Origin: a virus
DNA: 20,486 nucleotides
Reading direction: 5' to 3' (one strand)
Virus record (IMG/VR): IMGVR_UViG_3300028392_000343
Span: 1 to 20,486 of that record
Shown here: positions 13,195 through 19,454 of the stretch, one piece after another
Layout of the letters: every line of letters starts with the position of its first letter
Position numbering within the stretch: the first letter of the stretch is position 1
Position numbers and translations under genes: made by a program
Notes under the pieces: generated by a model
The model's input: the letters and a program-made list of their open reading frames with translations, nothing else
What the model was told of the DNA's origin: nothing
Database searches by the model: none

Positions 13195-15339
13195 ATGTTA
13201 ATTGAATCAAAATCACTTCTTGCTAAATTGATGGCTACTGAGAATCTTGTTGTTGAACAACGCAAGGTTTCTACTGCTATGTTCGACACCGTGAATCGCG
13301 TACTCATTGTTCCCGTATTGGACAATAAAATTCCAAGTCACACATATGATCTTTTCATGGGTCATGAAGTTGGTCATGCACTTTGGACTCCTACTGATGG
13401 TCAAAAAATTCGTGAAAAATTTGATATTCCACACAGTCTGGCAAATCTTATAGAAGATTCTAGAATTGAACGCAAAATCAAGTACAAATATCCCGGTCTG
13501 AAAAATTCTTTCATCAAAGGCTACAAAGATCTTCTCGACAGAAATTTCTTTGAAACTAAAGGTGTGAATATCAATAAAATGAAATTCATTGATCGACTGA
13601 ATCTTCACTGTAAGGGTGGTGCTCTTCTGAATATCCAATTCTCGAAAAAAGAAATGGATCTTGTGCGAGATGTCGAATCTACTGAAACTTACGAAGATGT
13701 GATGACTGTTTGTCGAAAAATCATTGACTTCACCAAAGAGAATTCGATAAATGGAGAATCGACTGATTTATCTTTTCCCGACTTTGAAGAAGATGGAGAA
13801 GACGTTTCAGATTTGATCATGGATAATGATGAAGGTGAAGACGAAAAATCTGATGAGGATGGTCAAACTGATCATACCGAAAGTGAAGAAGATGATTTTA
13901 AAGGTACTGGTGAAGTTTCTTCGGAATCTGAAGATGGAAATGGAGGTAGTGATTCTGAGATTGATGATGATATTAGTGATCTTTTGGAATCTGTCACAGA
14001 CCGAGCATATAAGAACAATGAATACAAACTCTTCTCTGAAGAGTCGATTGATTACGTTTATGTGAACGTTCCGAAATTGACTCCTGAACAAACAGTAATT
14101 GATTTCAAAGATGTGTATGAATACTATGACAGTTATAAATCAAAAATTAGTTACATCAATGATGTAAATATGTATGATACTGAAGGTTTTAATAAAATTC
14201 GAAACGAAATCAAAACAGGTGTTTCATATCTAGTAAAAGAATTTGAGATGCGTAAATCCGCAGATCAATTGAAGAAAGCTATTCCCGCAAAAACTGGTGA
14301 TCTGAATATGAATAAGATTTATTCACATCAGTTCAACGAAGATATTTTCAAAAAGATCACTGTAATGCCAGGAGCAAAATCACATGGTTTAGTGATCTTT
14401 CTAGATTGGTCTGGTTCAATGCACAGTCATCTTCAGAACACAATAAAACAACTGTTCAATATCGTGATGTTTTGTAAGAAAGTGAATATTCCTTACGAAG
14501 TGTACACCTTTACTAATCCTGCTTCAAGAGAAATCGAATTCAGACAACGTAGAATTTCTGGAGATCTATTGTTGGAAAATGTGAAACTGTTGAATGTTCT
14601 TTCTTCCAGAATGAATGCTGCACAATTTACCAAAGCATCATCGGCCCTGGTTTATTTGTCATCTACAGATTCACAATATGGATATAATCAAAAAATCACT
14701 CCAGATTGGTTCATTATGAATGGAACTCCTCTGAATCATACTATCGTGGCTGCCATGGAAATTGTTCCTGCTTTTCAACGCAAGAATAATCTTCAAATCG
14801 TTAACACTATCTTCCTGACTGATGGTGAAGGTGATTCTGGATTGGATAGAATTGACAATGATAATATTAGTATAAAAAAAATTCATACATGGAATTATAC
14901 ACCTCATCAGCGGATACATGTCATTGTTCGAGATCCTGTAACCAAACAACAAGAGAAGATTGATTTCTCCACTGCTAGAACTGTGACTGCATCGTTCATC
15001 AAACTGTTCAAATATAGAACGAATTGCAATATTGTGGGATTCTATATACTTTCACCCAATGAATTTAAAAACTATATTAATAATCAGCTTGCGAGTAAAG
15101 GTATAGACACCCAAGATATTCGTGCCAATTTCAGTAAGAATCATTGTGCTGTCATTAAAAATGATGGATTTGATGAATATTATCTCTTGAGGAGTAAGAG
15201 GGGAGATTCTGATGAACCGGAACTAATAGTTAAAGAAAATGCGTCCGCAAAAGTTTTAGCTACAGCATTCGCTAAATACAATACCAAACGTAATACACAC
15301 AGAATTGTACTCAATCGTTTCATTAACATAATTGCCTAA
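13195..15339 (+). CDS. Zinc-metallopeptidase/VWA protein (CobT-like)
   Basis: A 714-residue two-domain protein. The N-terminal domain has the zinc-peptidase motif H57-E-V-G-H61, with E87-D88 in LIEDSRIER as the likely third ligand. Residues ~196-265 are an acidic Asp/Glu/Ser linker. The C-terminal domain is a von Willebrand A domain with the metal site D404-W-S-G-S408, then a conserved Thr (NGTPL) and the last Asp in FLTDGEG. This is the CobT-like layout found in T4-like cyanophages, where the partner is often a MoxR/CobS-type AAA+ ATPase. Such pairs remodel or insert metals into proteins. It follows its own extended -10 promoter, so it is probably early. Whether it really cleaves peptide bonds is unknown. 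Confidence 0.85.
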   Translation: MLIESKSLLAKLMATENLVVEQRKVSTAMFDTVNRVLIVPVLDNKIPSHTYDLFMGHEVGHALWTPTDGQKIREKFDIPHSLANLIEDSRIERKIKYKYPGLKNSFIKGYKDLLDRNFFETKGVNINKMKFIDRLNLHCKGGALLNIQFSKKEMDLVRDVESTETYEDVMTVCRKIIDFTKENSINGESTDLSFPDFEEDGEDVSDLIMDNDEGEDEKSDEDGQTDHTESEEDDFKGTGEVSSESEDGNGGSDSEIDDDISDLLESVTDRAYKNNEYKLFSEESIDYVYVNVPKLTPEQTVIDFKDVYEYYDSYKSKISYINDVNMYDTEGFNKIRNEIKTGVSYLVKEFEMRKSADQLKKAIPAKTGDLNMNKIYSHQFNEDIFKKITVMPGAKSHGLVIFLDWSGSMHSHLQNTIKQLFNIVMFCKKVNIPYEVYTFTNPASREIEFRQRRISGDLLLENVKLLNVLSSRMNAAQFTKASSALVYLSSTDSQYGYNQKITPDWFIMNGTPLNHTIVAAMEIVPAFQRKNNLQIVNTIFLTDGEGDSGLDRIDNDNISIKKIHTWNYTPHQRIHVIVRDPVTKQQEKIDFSTARTVTASFIKLFKYRTNCNIVGFYILSPNEFKNYINNQLASKGIDTQDIRANFSKNHCAVIKNDGFDEYYLLRSKRGDSDEPELIVKENASAKVLATAFAKYNTKRNTHRIVLNRFINIIA

Positions 15340-15340
15340 C

Positions 15341-15544
15341 ATGACAAAATACACAGTAAAACTTTCCGATTCAAGTGGTCTCTCCGCTAATGTGCTTTAT
15401 GTCCGAGAGGATGCATCACACAAGGTAGAGTATTATAAAAATCAAAGATTAGTTGGGGAAGATTACTTTAATACAGAGATAGAGGCAACTAAGTCTGCCA
15501 GTCATTTTATAGATAACGGAGAACTCCATGGAAATCATTTCTAA
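15341..15544 (+). CDS. Small beta-beta-alpha protein
   Basis: A 67-residue protein starting at ATG 15341, two bases after the VWA stop; the in-frame TTG at 15332 overlaps that gene and is unlikely. Two predicted strands (KYTVKLSD, then HKVEYYKNQRLVGED) lead to a helix (EIEATKSASHFID). It overlaps the next gene by 17 bases. The next gene has the same overall layout, so the two may be old duplicates. No function is known to me. Confidence 0.6.
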   Translation: MTKYTVKLSDSSGLSANVLYVREDASHKVEYYKNQRLVGEDYFNTEIEATKSASHFIDNGELHGNHF

Positions 15545-15731
15545 TTATTCGAACGGAAACTACGAAGCACAAGTATCCAAGTCTTTTGATAATCATTATG
15601 TGGTTACTTACTCGATCAACGGTAAACAGATAAAAAAGACCAGTCATATTTCTCAAGCTCTTGCTGAGAATCTTGCTGAGGATTTCATTCTCGATGGTGG
15701 TGGTTACGATCCTCAGTTTCTTTCTGATTAA
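15528..15731 (+). CDS. Small beta-beta-alpha protein
   Basis: A 67-residue protein with a start inside the preceding gene (17-base overlap). The pattern is strand NGNYEAQVSKSF, strand HYVVTYSINGKQIKKT, helix SQALAENLAEDFILD. This is the short fold that recurs in several tiny genes of this window (15341, 20243, 20353). It ends the plus-strand early unit; two convergent genes follow after only 21 bases, without a visible terminator. Confidence 0.6.
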   Translation: MEIISNYSNGNYEAQVSKSFDNHYVVTYSINGKQIKKTSHISQALAENLAEDFILDGGGYDPQFLSD

Positions 15732-15752
15732 TTGTGTCTCTCTATAAGAACA

Positions 15753-16775
15753 TTATATGAAACCCTTCAATACACTCATATCATCTTTTAAATCATTTTC
15801 AATTAGATTATTAGTGGGATTTGGTCTACACATTTTACAATTTAATGTATTAAATGACTGATAAATTTTTTTGTGAGATTCTGAACACCAAATGTCTCTC
15901 CAATCAGAATTAGTCCATGATGCTAATTTAAATTCCGGTCGACCCTTATATTCACAACAAAGATATATGTTACCATCTGCACAGAAACTAGGAAATAAGA
16001 AGAACTGATGACATTTGTTATATGTACGATCTTCGAGTCTGTTTATTGATATGTTCGCAGATATTTGATATTCAATAGAACATTTATTAATTAAATTAAT
16101 AACTTCCGATGTTATATTAAAAGTTTTTGAGTCAATTATCACCGGTCTAAAATGTAATCCTCTCGCATTTACATCTTTAGCAAATTGGAATAGATCATGA
16201 ATTTCTTCCTCTGTAGAATTTTCCGGCATTAATAAAGCCTTTATATCAATTGGAGCTCCATTTGATCCAAACTCTGTTGCAAGTTCTTTTACTTTAGAGA
16301 ATGGACTTTTCATTCGACTTCGACGAATTATCTCATATGTCTCTGGATTTCCACTGTCTATGTCTAATCCAATATATGCCATTCTTTTTATTTTGTCGAA
16401 TGGAATCCGTAACAATTTGTCCAATTTTGTTCCGTTAGTATTCATTGCACAGCAAAATCCTTTATCAATTGCTGTCTCTATTATTTGTTCGTATCCAGGA
16501 AGAAGTGTTGGTTCCCCTCCGCCAGAAAAAATTACATTGCTTGTTGTTCCAATTACAGTAGGATCATATGAACGCCAATTATAGATATCTTCTATCAACT
16601 GGATATACTTCTCGACAGGTTGAAAGACCGGATTATCTTTCCTGAACAATTCTGTATTACAGTAATAACAAGCTTGATTACAAATATTTGTGGTGTCGAG
16701 ATCTATTTGCCAAGGCAATATTTTTCCTGGAATATGTCCTTTCAACCATCTCGCAATTAGTTGGTATTGTTGCAT
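15753..16775 (-). CDS. Radical SAM protein with SPASM-like C-terminus
   Basis: A 340-residue enzyme. The [4Fe-4S] motif is C32-N-Q-A-C36-Y-Y-C39, and the SAM motif GGGEPT sits at about 85-90. Substrate-side strands follow (MNTNGTKLDKL, GLDIDSG). The C-terminal ~100 residues have at least six Cys (CHQF, SFCADGNIYLCC, IWCSE, NCKMC) as in SPASM domains with extra clusters. These enzymes modify peptides, proteins or sugars. The start ATG 16775 overlaps the stop of the fucosyltransferase-like gene (TAATG) and is preferred over longer upstream starts; a GGTGG lies about nine bases upstream. It is not a T4 core gene. Its tight coupling suggests that it modifies what the glycosyltransferase makes or uses. 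Confidence 0.85.
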   Translation of the reverse strand: MQQYQLIARWLKGHIPGKILPWQIDLDTTNICNQACYYCNTELFRKDNPVFQPVEKYIQLIEDIYNWRSYDPTVIGTTSNVIFSGGGEPTLLPGYEQIIETAIDKGFCCAMNTNGTKLDKLLRIPFDKIKRMAYIGLDIDSGNPETYEIIRRSRMKSPFSKVKELATEFGSNGAPIDIKALLMPENSTEEEIHDLFQFAKDVNARGLHFRPVIIDSKTFNITSEVINLINKCSIEYQISANISINRLEDRTYNKCHQFFLFPSFCADGNIYLCCEYKGRPEFKLASWTNSDWRDIWCSESHKKIYQSFNTLNCKMCRPNPTNNLIENDLKDDMSVLKGFI

Positions 16776-17815
16776 TATGAAATCCACCCACATTCGGGCC
16801 ATTCTCTCCACCAAGTGGGTTGGGTGGGATATTCTACCCAGCTGTACTTTCCTGGTGATCTTGTTGACGTATTATTCAATGAATTATGATCTGATGAGAT
16901 ATCACCATCGAAGAAACTCCAAGTGCATCTGCCTCGATGGTGTTGCTGTCGATGTATGTAGGCTGTAAATGTACTACCTGGTGTTCCTATGAATTCCGAA
17001 GCATGTGATAATACCAGATTTGTAATTAAACCCATCACAACTTCATCATGATAAGGCAATTCTCTAAATCTCTGCGCCCACCCTTCCCGAATAATATCTT
17101 CCATAAGTGTGAATCTGTTAGAGTAACTTGTAACTTTGTCATCTCCAGGATTATCAGTTGCAAGTACAATTGGAAGACCATGTTCGGATATTTTATTGAT
17201 GCCCGATTCGAAATGATCTTTCTGAATCCTTATAGTTCTGTGATTGTCTGTGTCGCGTAAATGTAATGCTGCAAATGTTCCTAAATCTCTTGCAATGTCA
17301 TTAGCAAGATCAACATATGGTTGTTTCCATTGTATCTTTTTTAATGAATGGTCGATGTTTGAAGTACGATTGAAAAAGAATCTACAATAGAATGAAATCA
17401 TATTAATGAAATTATAATTCACTGAAGGATCAAGTTCCAACAATCCATGGCCATTTCTAAACTCATCTTCATTCCCATGCATCGATGGTTGACAATTCAC
17501 ATAATGTTTTTGGAATAAACATACAGTTTGATAATCATAGATATCTTCATTAATGTTTTTATCTTCTAAAATCCAATTTTCATTATCCCAATCAAGTATC
17601 TGATGAATACGATTAACCCTATCAGTTCCAATTAATTCGGGAAGTCTATTTCTATATCGATAAAATACTGGACTCGAAACACCTATAGGGTCATATTGAT
17701 CCCATAAATTATATAATCTAACAGGTTTATTCAACAAAGTGCTTAGACCAACAGCAATTTCTAAACTCATTAATTGATTAATCATTCCTGTACTCCACAA
17801 CCGAGCAGCAATCAT
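16775..17815 (-). CDS. O-fucosyltransferase-like glycosyltransferase
   Basis: A 346-residue protein starting at ATG 17815, with AAAGGAA about six bases upstream. The N-terminus (GMINQLMSLEIAVGLSTLL, residues 10-28) is typical of fucosyltransferase-type GT-B enzymes. The central H185-L-R187-D-T-D190 is the HxRxxD sugar-nucleotide (GDP-fucose) motif. The late block EFIGTPGSTFTAYIHR (274-289) resembles the last conserved motif of this group (FUT8/NodZ/POFUT-like). The acceptor is unknown: it could be cell-surface glycan, a protein or DNA base. No signal peptide or membrane anchor, so it is cytoplasmic. Only eight codons lie between its TTG alternative and the ATG; the ATG is chosen for the ribosome-binding site. 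Confidence 0.75.
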   Translation of the reverse strand: MIAARLWSTGMINQLMSLEIAVGLSTLLNKPVRLYNLWDQYDPIGVSSPVFYRYRNRLPELIGTDRVNRIHQILDWDNENWILEDKNINEDIYDYQTVCLFQKHYVNCQPSMHGNEDEFRNGHGLLELDPSVNYNFINMISFYCRFFFNRTSNIDHSLKKIQWKQPYVDLANDIARDLGTFAALHLRDTDNHRTIRIQKDHFESGINKISEHGLPIVLATDNPGDDKVTSYSNRFTLMEDIIREGWAQRFRELPYHDEVVMGLITNLVLSHASEFIGTPGSTFTAYIHRQQHHRGRCTWSFFDGDISSDHNSLNNTSTRSPGKYSWVEYPTQPTWWREWPECGWIS

Positions 17816-17832
17816 AGATGTTTCCTTTATTG

Positions 17833-17861
17833 TTGACAATTCAAATCTAATGTGTTATACT
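17833..17861 (+). promoter_or_regulatory. Sigma-70 promoter with extended -10, plus strand
   Basis: TTGACA (17833-17838), 17-base spacer, TATACT (17856-17861), with TG at 17853-17854. It points to the membrane protein at 17921. It lies just upstream of the start of the minus-strand fucosyltransferase-like gene. I found no equally good promoter on the minus strand. Confidence 0.8.
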
Positions 17862-17869
17862 AGCTTATA

Positions 17870-17877
17870 TATAAATA
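17870..17877 (+). promoter_or_regulatory. T4-type late promoter
   Basis: TATAAATA is an exact late consensus, eight bases after the sigma-70 -10 box and 43 bases before the ATG at 17921. The gene pair 17921/18188 could thus be expressed both early and late. Confidence 0.65.
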
Positions 17878-17920
17878 ATTAATGTATCTTCTAAGAGCCT
17901 CCTGAAGCGTTTCCTAAAGC

Positions 17921-18184
17921 ATGTTCTCAAATCTATTTGATATATCTCCGAGTACTCTGAATCTGTTCTCGTTTATCCTTGGAATGACCTTCGCCTCATT
18001 TCTTTCATGGTACCGCAGAACTGCATTCATGTACATTGTTGCATACTTCATGTGTCTTGCATTCTTTTACGGTGCATTTAAACCCAACATCGAAACATCT
18101 CCATATAATTCGAGAAGTAATTCTGCACCACAATCAGATAATTATCCACCACTCCCATTGCCAACTCCAAGAGGATACAAATAA
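17921..18184 (+). CDS. Small membrane protein with Pro-rich tail
   Basis: An 87-residue protein. Two hydrophobic segments are visible: about residues 12-28 (LNLFSFILGMTFASFLSW) and 32-51 (TAFMYIVAYFMCLAFFYGAF), split by YRR. A ~35-residue Ser/Asn/Pro-rich tail follows (PPLPLPTPRGYK at the end). No signal cleavage is predicted. It is the first gene of a pair with the glycosyltransferase-like gene, three bases apart. It may anchor that enzyme to the membrane or act alone. Ribosome-binding site weak. Family not recognised. Confidence 0.6.
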   Translation: MFSNLFDISPSTLNLFSFILGMTFASFLSWYRRTAFMYIVAYFMCLAFFYGAFKPNIETSPYNSRSNSAPQSDNYPPLPLPTPRGYK

Positions 18185-18187
18185 TTC

Positions 18188-19024
18188 ATGATCAGTATAC
18201 TCGTAGCAGACAATAGAGACTACTTCAAATGGCAAGTAGAGTTATTCTGGTTCGCGCATCAATCCATCTATGGTGATCGCGCAAATCAGAAAGCGCTTGT
18301 TGTTATCATGGACAAAGATTGCAGTAGTGGTCCAATTAAGGACACTAACTGGAACATATCGATACCCAAACAAACAGGAATCAATTTCGGCGATTATCTA
18401 AGTTTAGAGAAAGCAGAACGTGGATTAAGTACAATTAACATACAGGTAGGATTAAAACAAGTCATCGATAGATTTGATGATGAAGAAATCATCGAAGTTC
18501 TCGACTGTGATATGTTTCATCTTAAACCATATCCGGAATATGAAATCGGTGATAACGAAGTAATTGTGTGTGATCTATATGAAGATTGGCATATGAAAAG
18601 CTTGACTGATCACAAAGATATCATCGAACCTTATTTTCTAAACGATGGAAAATACTATAATGGTGGATTTGTTCCTTTGGTGGCTAAGGTCAAAACGTTT
18701 CGTAAATTACTCGCCGATTGGATCTCCATTCATCTAGAGATTTTTAACCAACAAGACGATGAGTTAATTCGTTGGTGGGCGGGTATGTATTCATTTAATG
18801 CTGCGTGTGAACGGCATAAAATACAAATGATTGCCAAGGATTGTTGTTATATTCCACCTGCAAACAATTTCGAAGACTCACATTATATTTGTCATTACTC
18901 GGGTGATAAGACCTTCAATAAAAACGAAATCAACGGTAATTTCAATAATATTGACACATCTATCTTCCCAGACAATCCATTTTATAACACAATAAAAGAA
19001 TGGTTAAAACACCGCCGCGGTTAA
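18188..19024 (+). CDS. GT-A-like glycosyltransferase (DxD), HPAT/SERGT-like
   Basis: A 278-residue protein. The core motif is EVLDCDMFHLKP with D106-C-D108, a metal-binding DxD of GT-A enzymes that bind UDP-sugars. The start (DYFKWQVELFWFAHQS, residues 11-26) and a later block (YYNGGFVPLVAKVKTFRKLLADW, about 157-179, shown in part by YNGG and FRKLL) recall plant-type peptidyl serine galactosyl- or hydroxyproline arabinosyltransferases. That likeness is from memory and only moderate. Signal or membrane segment absent. It is coupled to the membrane protein just upstream and lies next to the radical SAM and fucosyltransferase-like pair on the opposite strand. The target could be a peptide, virion protein or surface glycan. 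Confidence 0.6.
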   Translation: MISILVADNRDYFKWQVELFWFAHQSIYGDRANQKALVVIMDKDCSSGPIKDTNWNISIPKQTGINFGDYLSLEKAERGLSTINIQVGLKQVIDRFDDEEIIEVLDCDMFHLKPYPEYEIGDNEVIVCDLYEDWHMKSLTDHKDIIEPYFLNDGKYYNGGFVPLVAKVKTFRKLLADWISIHLEIFNQQDDELIRWWAGMYSFNAACERHKIQMIAKDCCYIPPANNFEDSHYICHYSGDKTFNKNEINGNFNNIDTSIFPDNPFYNTIKEWLKHRRG

Positions 19025-19042: not shown

Positions 19043-19240
19043 ATGATTATTAATCGAAAATCTAAATGGGCTAAAAAAGTCGAAGAAAAGAAAAAGTATG
19101 AGAATGTATGGTTTGACTGGTTCGCATGGAGACCTACGAGGATCAATGAACATACTATCGTGTGGTTCCAAACTATACAGAGACGTAGATCGTATCTAAG
19201 TCTGTTTAGTTATAGTTACAATTACCGATTGAAGAAGTAA
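19043..19240 (+). CDS. Small Arg/Trp-rich protein
   Basis: A 65-residue basic protein from ATG 19043, 18 bases after the glycosyltransferase-like gene. It is rich in Trp, Arg, Lys and Tyr: VWFDWFAWRPTRI, then IVWFQTIQRRRSYL. The WFAWRP and WFQTIQRRR pattern is like small proteins I remember in other T4-like phages, without known role. There is no membrane segment. No good ribosome-binding site is seen, so it may depend on upstream translation. Confidence 0.55.
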   Translation: MIINRKSKWAKKVEEKKKYENVWFDWFAWRPTRINEHTIVWFQTIQRRRSYLSLFSYSYNYRLKK

Positions 19241-19454
19241 CCATTGTGGCTTTCTGAAATTCTCTGAGGAGCCACTGGAAAAATTTTTGTGGTCCACTTT
19301 GAGGCAAAATTCGAAATTCTCTGTGGATGGCCAAGAAATTAAATTTTAGGGAAAAAGAGTTTGGGCACCACAGCAATTTTCTTACACACTCTACACACTC
19401 CATTTTAACACAGTCGGAACACACTGTCAACCACTATTTTTCGCACGATAATGC

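Follow-up and report, generated by a model that had tools for sequence, protein, structure and literature searches.

What could a radical S-adenosylmethionine (SAM) enzyme and two unlike glycosyltransferases do side by side in a phage genome? The question is raised by positions 15753-19024 of IMGVR_UViG_3300028392_000343, the full 20,486-bp contig of a T4-like phage (the window). There, two minus-strand genes encoding the radical-SAM enzyme (RSAM) and an O-fucosyltransferase-like protein (OFUT) lie back to back with two plus-strand genes encoding a small membrane protein (TM) and a glycosyltransferase resembling hydroxyproline O-arabinosyltransferases (HPAT). We think, with slightly better than even confidence, that the locus holds an accessory module for glycan tailoring that was acquired piecemeal in a hypervariable slot; its three enzymes probably modify a sugar on the surface of host or virion. 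An earlier note on this DNA had read the four genes as one inserted cassette. The two gene pairs, overlaps and motifs that it described were correct when ORFs (open reading frames) and motifs were checked, and its start codons were corrected.

All four genes are real and intact, each with an uninterrupted ORF. The start codon of RSAM is the ATG within a TAATG overlap and not the upstream TTG at 16814; every phage homologue begins at this ATG. For OFUT, the most probable start codon is the ATG at 17815, which has AAGGAAA just upstream and from which its homologues align. The OFUT stop and the RSAM start share the TAATG, giving a same-strand overlap of 4 nt, and HPAT begins 3 nt past the TM stop. 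The features are listed below, where L030-L033 are the four loci with the nearest relatives of the peptidase-like gene (59-69%).

13195..15339, plus strand: peptidase-like flank gene (714 aa; phrog_459, 1.2e-187), the syntenic anchor
15341..15544, plus strand: gA, small flank gene conserved between peptidase and TM
15528..15731, plus strand: gB, small flank gene conserved between peptidase and TM
15732..17887 (ends approximate), no strand: first inserted segment, comprising RSAM, OFUT and a promoter, from tblastn synteny and junction alignments; absent in L030-L033, where 0-160 bp separate gB from TM
15753..16778, minus strand: RSAM, predicted twitch-type radical-SAM enzyme (341 aa; PF04055, 1.5e-16; cysteine motif; 28 viral homologues)
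16775..17815, minus strand: OFUT, putative GDP-fucose-type (POFUT/NodZ/FUT8-like) GT-B glycosyltransferase (346 aa; O-FucT 5e-5, below cutoff; POFUT2 profile; Foldseek)
17921..18184, plus strand: TM, small membrane protein of 87 aa from a resident gene that follows gB directly in L030-L033 (conserved, 61-79%)
18188..19024, plus strand: HPAT, HPAT-like GT-A glycosyltransferase (278 aa; PF23452, 5.1e-9), the second addition, filling the variable slot immediately downstream of TM

Two additions around a resident gene

A search with the peptidase-like protein returned 542 viral relatives; the 80 best were retained. By tblastn, L030-L033 matched the gene order of the window from the ribonucleotide reductase genes through peptidase, gA, gB and TM, except that a small gene was now and then not listed. 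In L031, gB and TM overlap, stop over start; the two genes are 29 bp apart in L030 and 161 bp apart in L032. The spacing in the window is 2,189 bp, and the additional DNA is a segment of ~2.15 kb whose only genes are the minus-strand RSAM and OFUT. Its left edge is the gB stop; its right edge lies near 17887, where junction alignments matched CTTCTAAGAGCC of the window to CTCCTAAGCGCC of L030.

Because TM directly follows gB in L030-L033 without any insertion, it is a resident gene, and RSAM-OFUT and HPAT are therefore two separate additions that flank it. A single inserted four-gene cassette was therefore rejected. The slot after TM is occupied by a small ORF and then an exonuclease-like gene in L030, by a Methyltransf_24 gene in L031, and by small ORFs followed by an unidentified 227-aa protein in L032 and L033. 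Further, the post-peptidase region was plastic across the 80 relatives. The added genes are absent from syntenic relatives and the content of the site varies, as in T4-like hypervariable cassettes. The base composition of the insert was not unusual (GC content 0.336 compared with 0.356 for the window), and no perfect direct repeats of at least 7 nt were detected between the two 100-bp junction neighbourhoods. The view that three modifying enzymes, none of them a T4 core gene, reside here in inserted or variable DNA was upheld, and they have glycan-type relatives. More generally, what looks like a strand-switched "cassette" can consist of two unrelated insertions on either side of a resident gene.

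This history bears on the explanation that the genes are independent, have unrelated functions and are linked only by proximity in a hypervariable slot. The two separate insertions, the diversity of genes housed after TM, and the failure to find RSAM and OFUT together elsewhere all favour it. RSAM and OFUT, on the other hand, run in the same direction with a 4-nt overlap and arrived as one segment, and the RSAM family recurs beside a glycosyltransferase in another phage clade. We regard independence as unlikely.

In other relatives, the variable region after the peptidase gene carries another radical-SAM gene (L106, 10368-11855), a nucleotide-sugar dehydratase/epimerase gene with a methyltransferase-like gene (L109, 6159-9892) or a GT4 gene (L059, 6491-7495).

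The three enzymes and their relatives

RSAM belongs to the radical SAM superfamily (PF04055, 61.5 bits; cutoff, 29.5). Its CX3CX2C motif (CNQACYYC, residues 33-40; C33-C37-C40) and a GGGEPT motif were invariant among close homologues. Auxiliary cysteines (C256-x12-G-x4-C274 and C314-x2-C317) were kept in all aligned phage homologues and amount to the half-SPASM complement of about four cysteines. Judged by sequence, RSAM is a twitch-type radical-SAM enzyme with one auxiliary-cluster motif. The label "SPASM-type" given earlier is imprecise because the CX2CX5CX3C of a full SPASM domain (two auxiliary clusters) is missing: CX9-15GX4C and CX2C are present, and PF13186 scored 19.3 bits, below its cutoff of 21.5. 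It is hardly credible that RSAM is a viperin-like (pVip) enzyme producing a modified nucleotide: viperins were the best NCBIfam and PADLOC matches, but the NCBIfam match reached 54 bits against a cutoff of 180 and was limited to the radical-SAM core, and the conserved auxiliary-cluster cysteines are those of a twitch domain.

RSAM has 28 viral homologues. The full-length ones (62-64% identical) all belong to a second T4-like phage group with SSB, UvsX, UvsY and helicase genes. Compared with the 63% homologues, RSAM is under purifying selection, with identities by codon position of 0.71/0.79/0.47. In this second clade, all 17 loci that extend past RSAM have one or two adjoining convergent genes encoding 430-460 aa; many of these loci are near-identical, so that they represent far fewer independent events. 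Pfam did not recognise the convergent neighbours, but Foldseek identified the AlphaFold2 model (pLDDT, the predicted local distance difference test score, 80) as a GT-B glycosyltransferase (best match 3.6e-4, probability 0.99). A distant podovirus relative of RSAM adjoins a GT2 gene, heading a GT2-PhyH-methyltransferase-NodB-GT cassette.

The best bacterial relatives found were from Helicobacteraceae (60-82 bits, ~25% identity). All 12 lie near rmlA, the neighbours of many also including rmlB, a gene of the FdtA family or one for a DegT aminotransferase, and they keep the 18-residue auxiliary-cysteine step of RSAM (C-x17-C) and CX2C. A search of 200 genomes of one phylum with a profile of the RSAM alignment found nothing at 1e-12 but missed known relatives as well, and its negative result carries no weight.

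Several other radical-SAM loci were noted. Relatives more distant from RSAM (L116, L135-L137 and L140) lie in prophage-like loci between glycosyltransferase-type and packaging-type genes, the neighbour in L116 being a TET-associated glycosyltransferase (TAGT); these loci are possibly DNA-modification cassettes. Near-tandem runs of about a dozen or more radical-SAM genes (380-520 aa) on one strand were observed in G001 (IMGVR_UViG_3300027749_000040, 54.8-73.4 kb; L153, L154), after tail-fibre-like and glycosyltransferase-like ORFs, and a similar array in G210 (IMGVR_UViG_3300028557_000015, 38.8-58.1 kb). Both are T4-like phage contigs that also carry an RSAM homologue, with 17 and 16 Pfam matches per contig, respectively. 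Further, NAD-dependent epimerase, DegT aminotransferase and radical-SAM genes are consecutive at 94.0-97.1 kb of G001 (L155). Radical-SAM genes are recurrent in variable regions of aquatic T4-like phages, and none was found with an assigned reaction.

OFUT carries HxRxTD and GTPGSTF motifs, and a profile built from five phage sequences matched POFUT2 (6e-6). Foldseek aligned the C-terminal half of its model with POFUT1/2 (5e-4, probability 1.00) and also with NodZ and FUT8. Its phage relatives are 31-33% identical; one (L027) adjoins a GT11 fucosyltransferase gene, with a GDP-fucose synthase a few genes on, and another (L113) adjoins a GDP-mannose 3,5-epimerase gene. The contigs of these OFUT relatives yielded no radical-SAM gene, and those of RSAM homologues no OFUT.

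HPAT matched PF23452 above cutoff (36.4 bits; cutoff, 23.9), covering 4-249 of 307 positions, and its DxD motif is DCD at residue 106. No relative was confirmed in annotated phages or by a pattern search of viral contigs. The pattern search is blind to distant relatives: it confirmed none for TM either and failed to pick up the TM copies of L030-L033. In the contig-level search for HPAT the control gave no match, and so absence is not demonstrated. Recurrence of the neighbourhood, which the earlier note had proposed to look for, holds in part: the RSAM family lies beside a GT-B gene in another phage clade and beside GT2 in a distant relative, while RSAM plus OFUT occurred in no other contig and HPAT had no relative among the phages searched.

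Proposed tailoring of a surface sugar and competing explanations

We infer the chemistry, acceptor and biological role of the module as follows. OFUT would be the transferase, with a GDP-sugar as donor, probably GDP-fucose or a related compound. RSAM, co-translated with OFUT, would alter a sugar by oxidation, epimerisation or deoxygenation with the help of SAM, its radical cluster and a single auxiliary cluster, acting on the nucleotide-sugar donor or on the sugar after transfer. HPAT may add a further sugar. The product would most likely change a glycan on the surface of the infected host, for receptor masking or superinfection exclusion, and less likely a virion protein. The common pathway proposed earlier is plausible for RSAM and OFUT because their genes overlap; for HPAT it is only a guess. 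The pair and the sugar-cluster relatives in bacteria lead to a concrete prediction: RSAM edits the sugar used by a GDP-sugar-type transferase.

Several points weigh against this proposal. OFUT scored below the cutoff of Pfam O-FucT (PF10250; 5e-5, 23.5 bits; cutoff, 31.5), and its model had a mean pLDDT of 45.7, with only the C-terminal half confident. RSAM and OFUT were not found together in any contig besides the window, so that the case for a shared pathway is the operon overlap. None of the genes in the 20-kb contig was recognised as one for nucleotide-sugar synthesis, and TM is not a member of the cassette. The bacterial relatives came from a scan with patterns from a small alignment, and at ~25% identity the transfer of their function to RSAM is tentative. 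Finally, the distant relatives beside TAGT genes keep DNA modification open.

In that explanation, the glycosyltransferases and RSAM would decorate a modified base of the phage DNA against restriction, as in TAGT phages or T4 glucosylation. Some distant RSAM relatives (about 37 bits or less) indeed lie beside TAGT-type and packaging-type genes in prophage-like loci, and the region of the window genes, which includes ThyX and ribonucleotide reductase, is one of early or nucleotide-metabolism genes. However, neither OFUT nor HPAT matched a family of DNA glucosyltransferases or TAGTs, none of the window genes was recognised as a hydroxymethylase (ThyX being an ordinary Thy1), and RSAM is nearer to the sugar-cluster enzymes (60-82 bits) than to TAGT-linked ones (L116, 36.7 bits). 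DNA hypermodification is quite improbable.

Alternatively, RSAM might modify a peptide or virion protein by radical chemistry, with the glycosyltransferases glycosylating the product, in the manner of a glycoprotein or a ribosomally synthesized and post-translationally modified peptide (RiPP). The eukaryotic O-FucT and HPAT families are protein glycosyltransferases, and many SPASM or twitch enzymes act on peptides. Against this, neither a RiPP precursor nor a leader-recognition domain was noticed, sugar genes were the neighbours seen beside RSAM relatives in bacteria, and the phage relatives of OFUT accompany GDP-sugar genes. We consider this explanation distinctly unlikely. Both rivals are live, yet weaker than glycan tailoring.

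Within the glycan-tailoring proposal, RSAM might be the fixed core of a glycan-editing device of phages, with exchangeable glycosyltransferase partners that place a radical-edited sugar on a surface target. In this view, one radical-SAM enzyme would be coupled in two T4-like lineages with distinct GT-B partners: OFUT in the window and an unrelated GT-B family in the other lineage. This extension is tentative and rather doubtful. In the literature we found no description of radical-edited-sugar chemistry in phages and no earlier description of the RSAM-OFUT enzyme pair.

Promoters and comparison with known systems

The window also encodes a primase, ThyX, two ribonucleotide reductases, an RNase H-like exonuclease and the 714-aa phage peptidase-like protein. 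No close DNA relatives were found among annotated phages, and Rfam and tRNA searches of the window gave no match. The promoter form of this phage clade is TTGACA-N17-TGTG(t/a)TATaAT. Four sites in the window had at least 11/12 matches with the TGn extension, compared with 0.07 per shuffled window. Two promoters concern the locus:

17833..17861, plus strand: sigma-70-type promoter TTGACA-N17-TATACT with extended -10, upstream of TM-HPAT, within the first inserted segment
19402..19430, minus strand: leftward promoter, conserved in L030-L033

The former is one of the four strong sites; no equivalent was found in L030-L033. An early-type promoter thus sits in inserted DNA just upstream of a resident gene, where it would allow TM-HPAT to be transcribed again beyond the reversed RSAM-OFUT pair. 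The leftward promoter at 19430 could in principle transcribe OFUT-RSAM and, with a conserved leader, is common to L030-L033. This early-type promoter and the leader that follows it form an element (19206-19430, minus strand) also present in L030-L033. The leader contains AAACTCTTTTTCC; no conserved ORF was noticed in it, nor was there an Rfam match at the gathering threshold. It is a possible candidate for a small RNA.

Compared with known families, OFUT resembles POFUT/NodZ/FUT8 (GT65/68/23) in its predicted C-terminal nucleotide-binding half and its HxR and GTxxSTF motifs, but differs in scoring below the Pfam cutoff and in an N-terminal half without a confident model. HPAT resembles the hydroxyproline O-arabinosyltransferase family PF23452 in its DxD motif and a score above gathering, arabinosyl transfer being putative; unlike that family, it is a phage protein without relatives found in the viral collections searched.

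Among gene clusters, the dTDP-sugar clusters of Helicobacteraceae and a Brachyspira plasmid block that joins radical-SAM and glycosyl transferase genes with dTDP-sugar genes (PMC4267127) likewise combine radical-SAM and nucleotide-sugar genes, the Brachyspira likeness being one of gene content. In contrast, no sugar-synthesis genes were recognised in the window, and identity to the Helicobacteraceae enzymes is only ~25%. In the second T4-like clade (L002-L019, uvsY-to-helicase interval), RSAM is 63% identical and a gene with a glycosyltransferase fold directly adjoins it; unlike in the window, this partner belongs to an unrelated GT-B family and is convergent, and the genomic site differs.

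The strategy of altering surface sugars is already known in outline for phages. Host-recognition clusters of pelagimyophages contain glycosyltransferase and radical-SAM cassettes, for which the authors proposed O-chain modification (PMC7029224). Those cassettes lie in the VrlC-gp14 structural cluster, whereas the site in the window is an early/middle-type region after the peptidase gene and holds a specific, overlapping RSAM-OFUT pair. In both cases, glycosyltransferase and radical-SAM genes have been added to a plastic region of a T4-like phage, and a change of the host-surface glycan is the proposed outcome.

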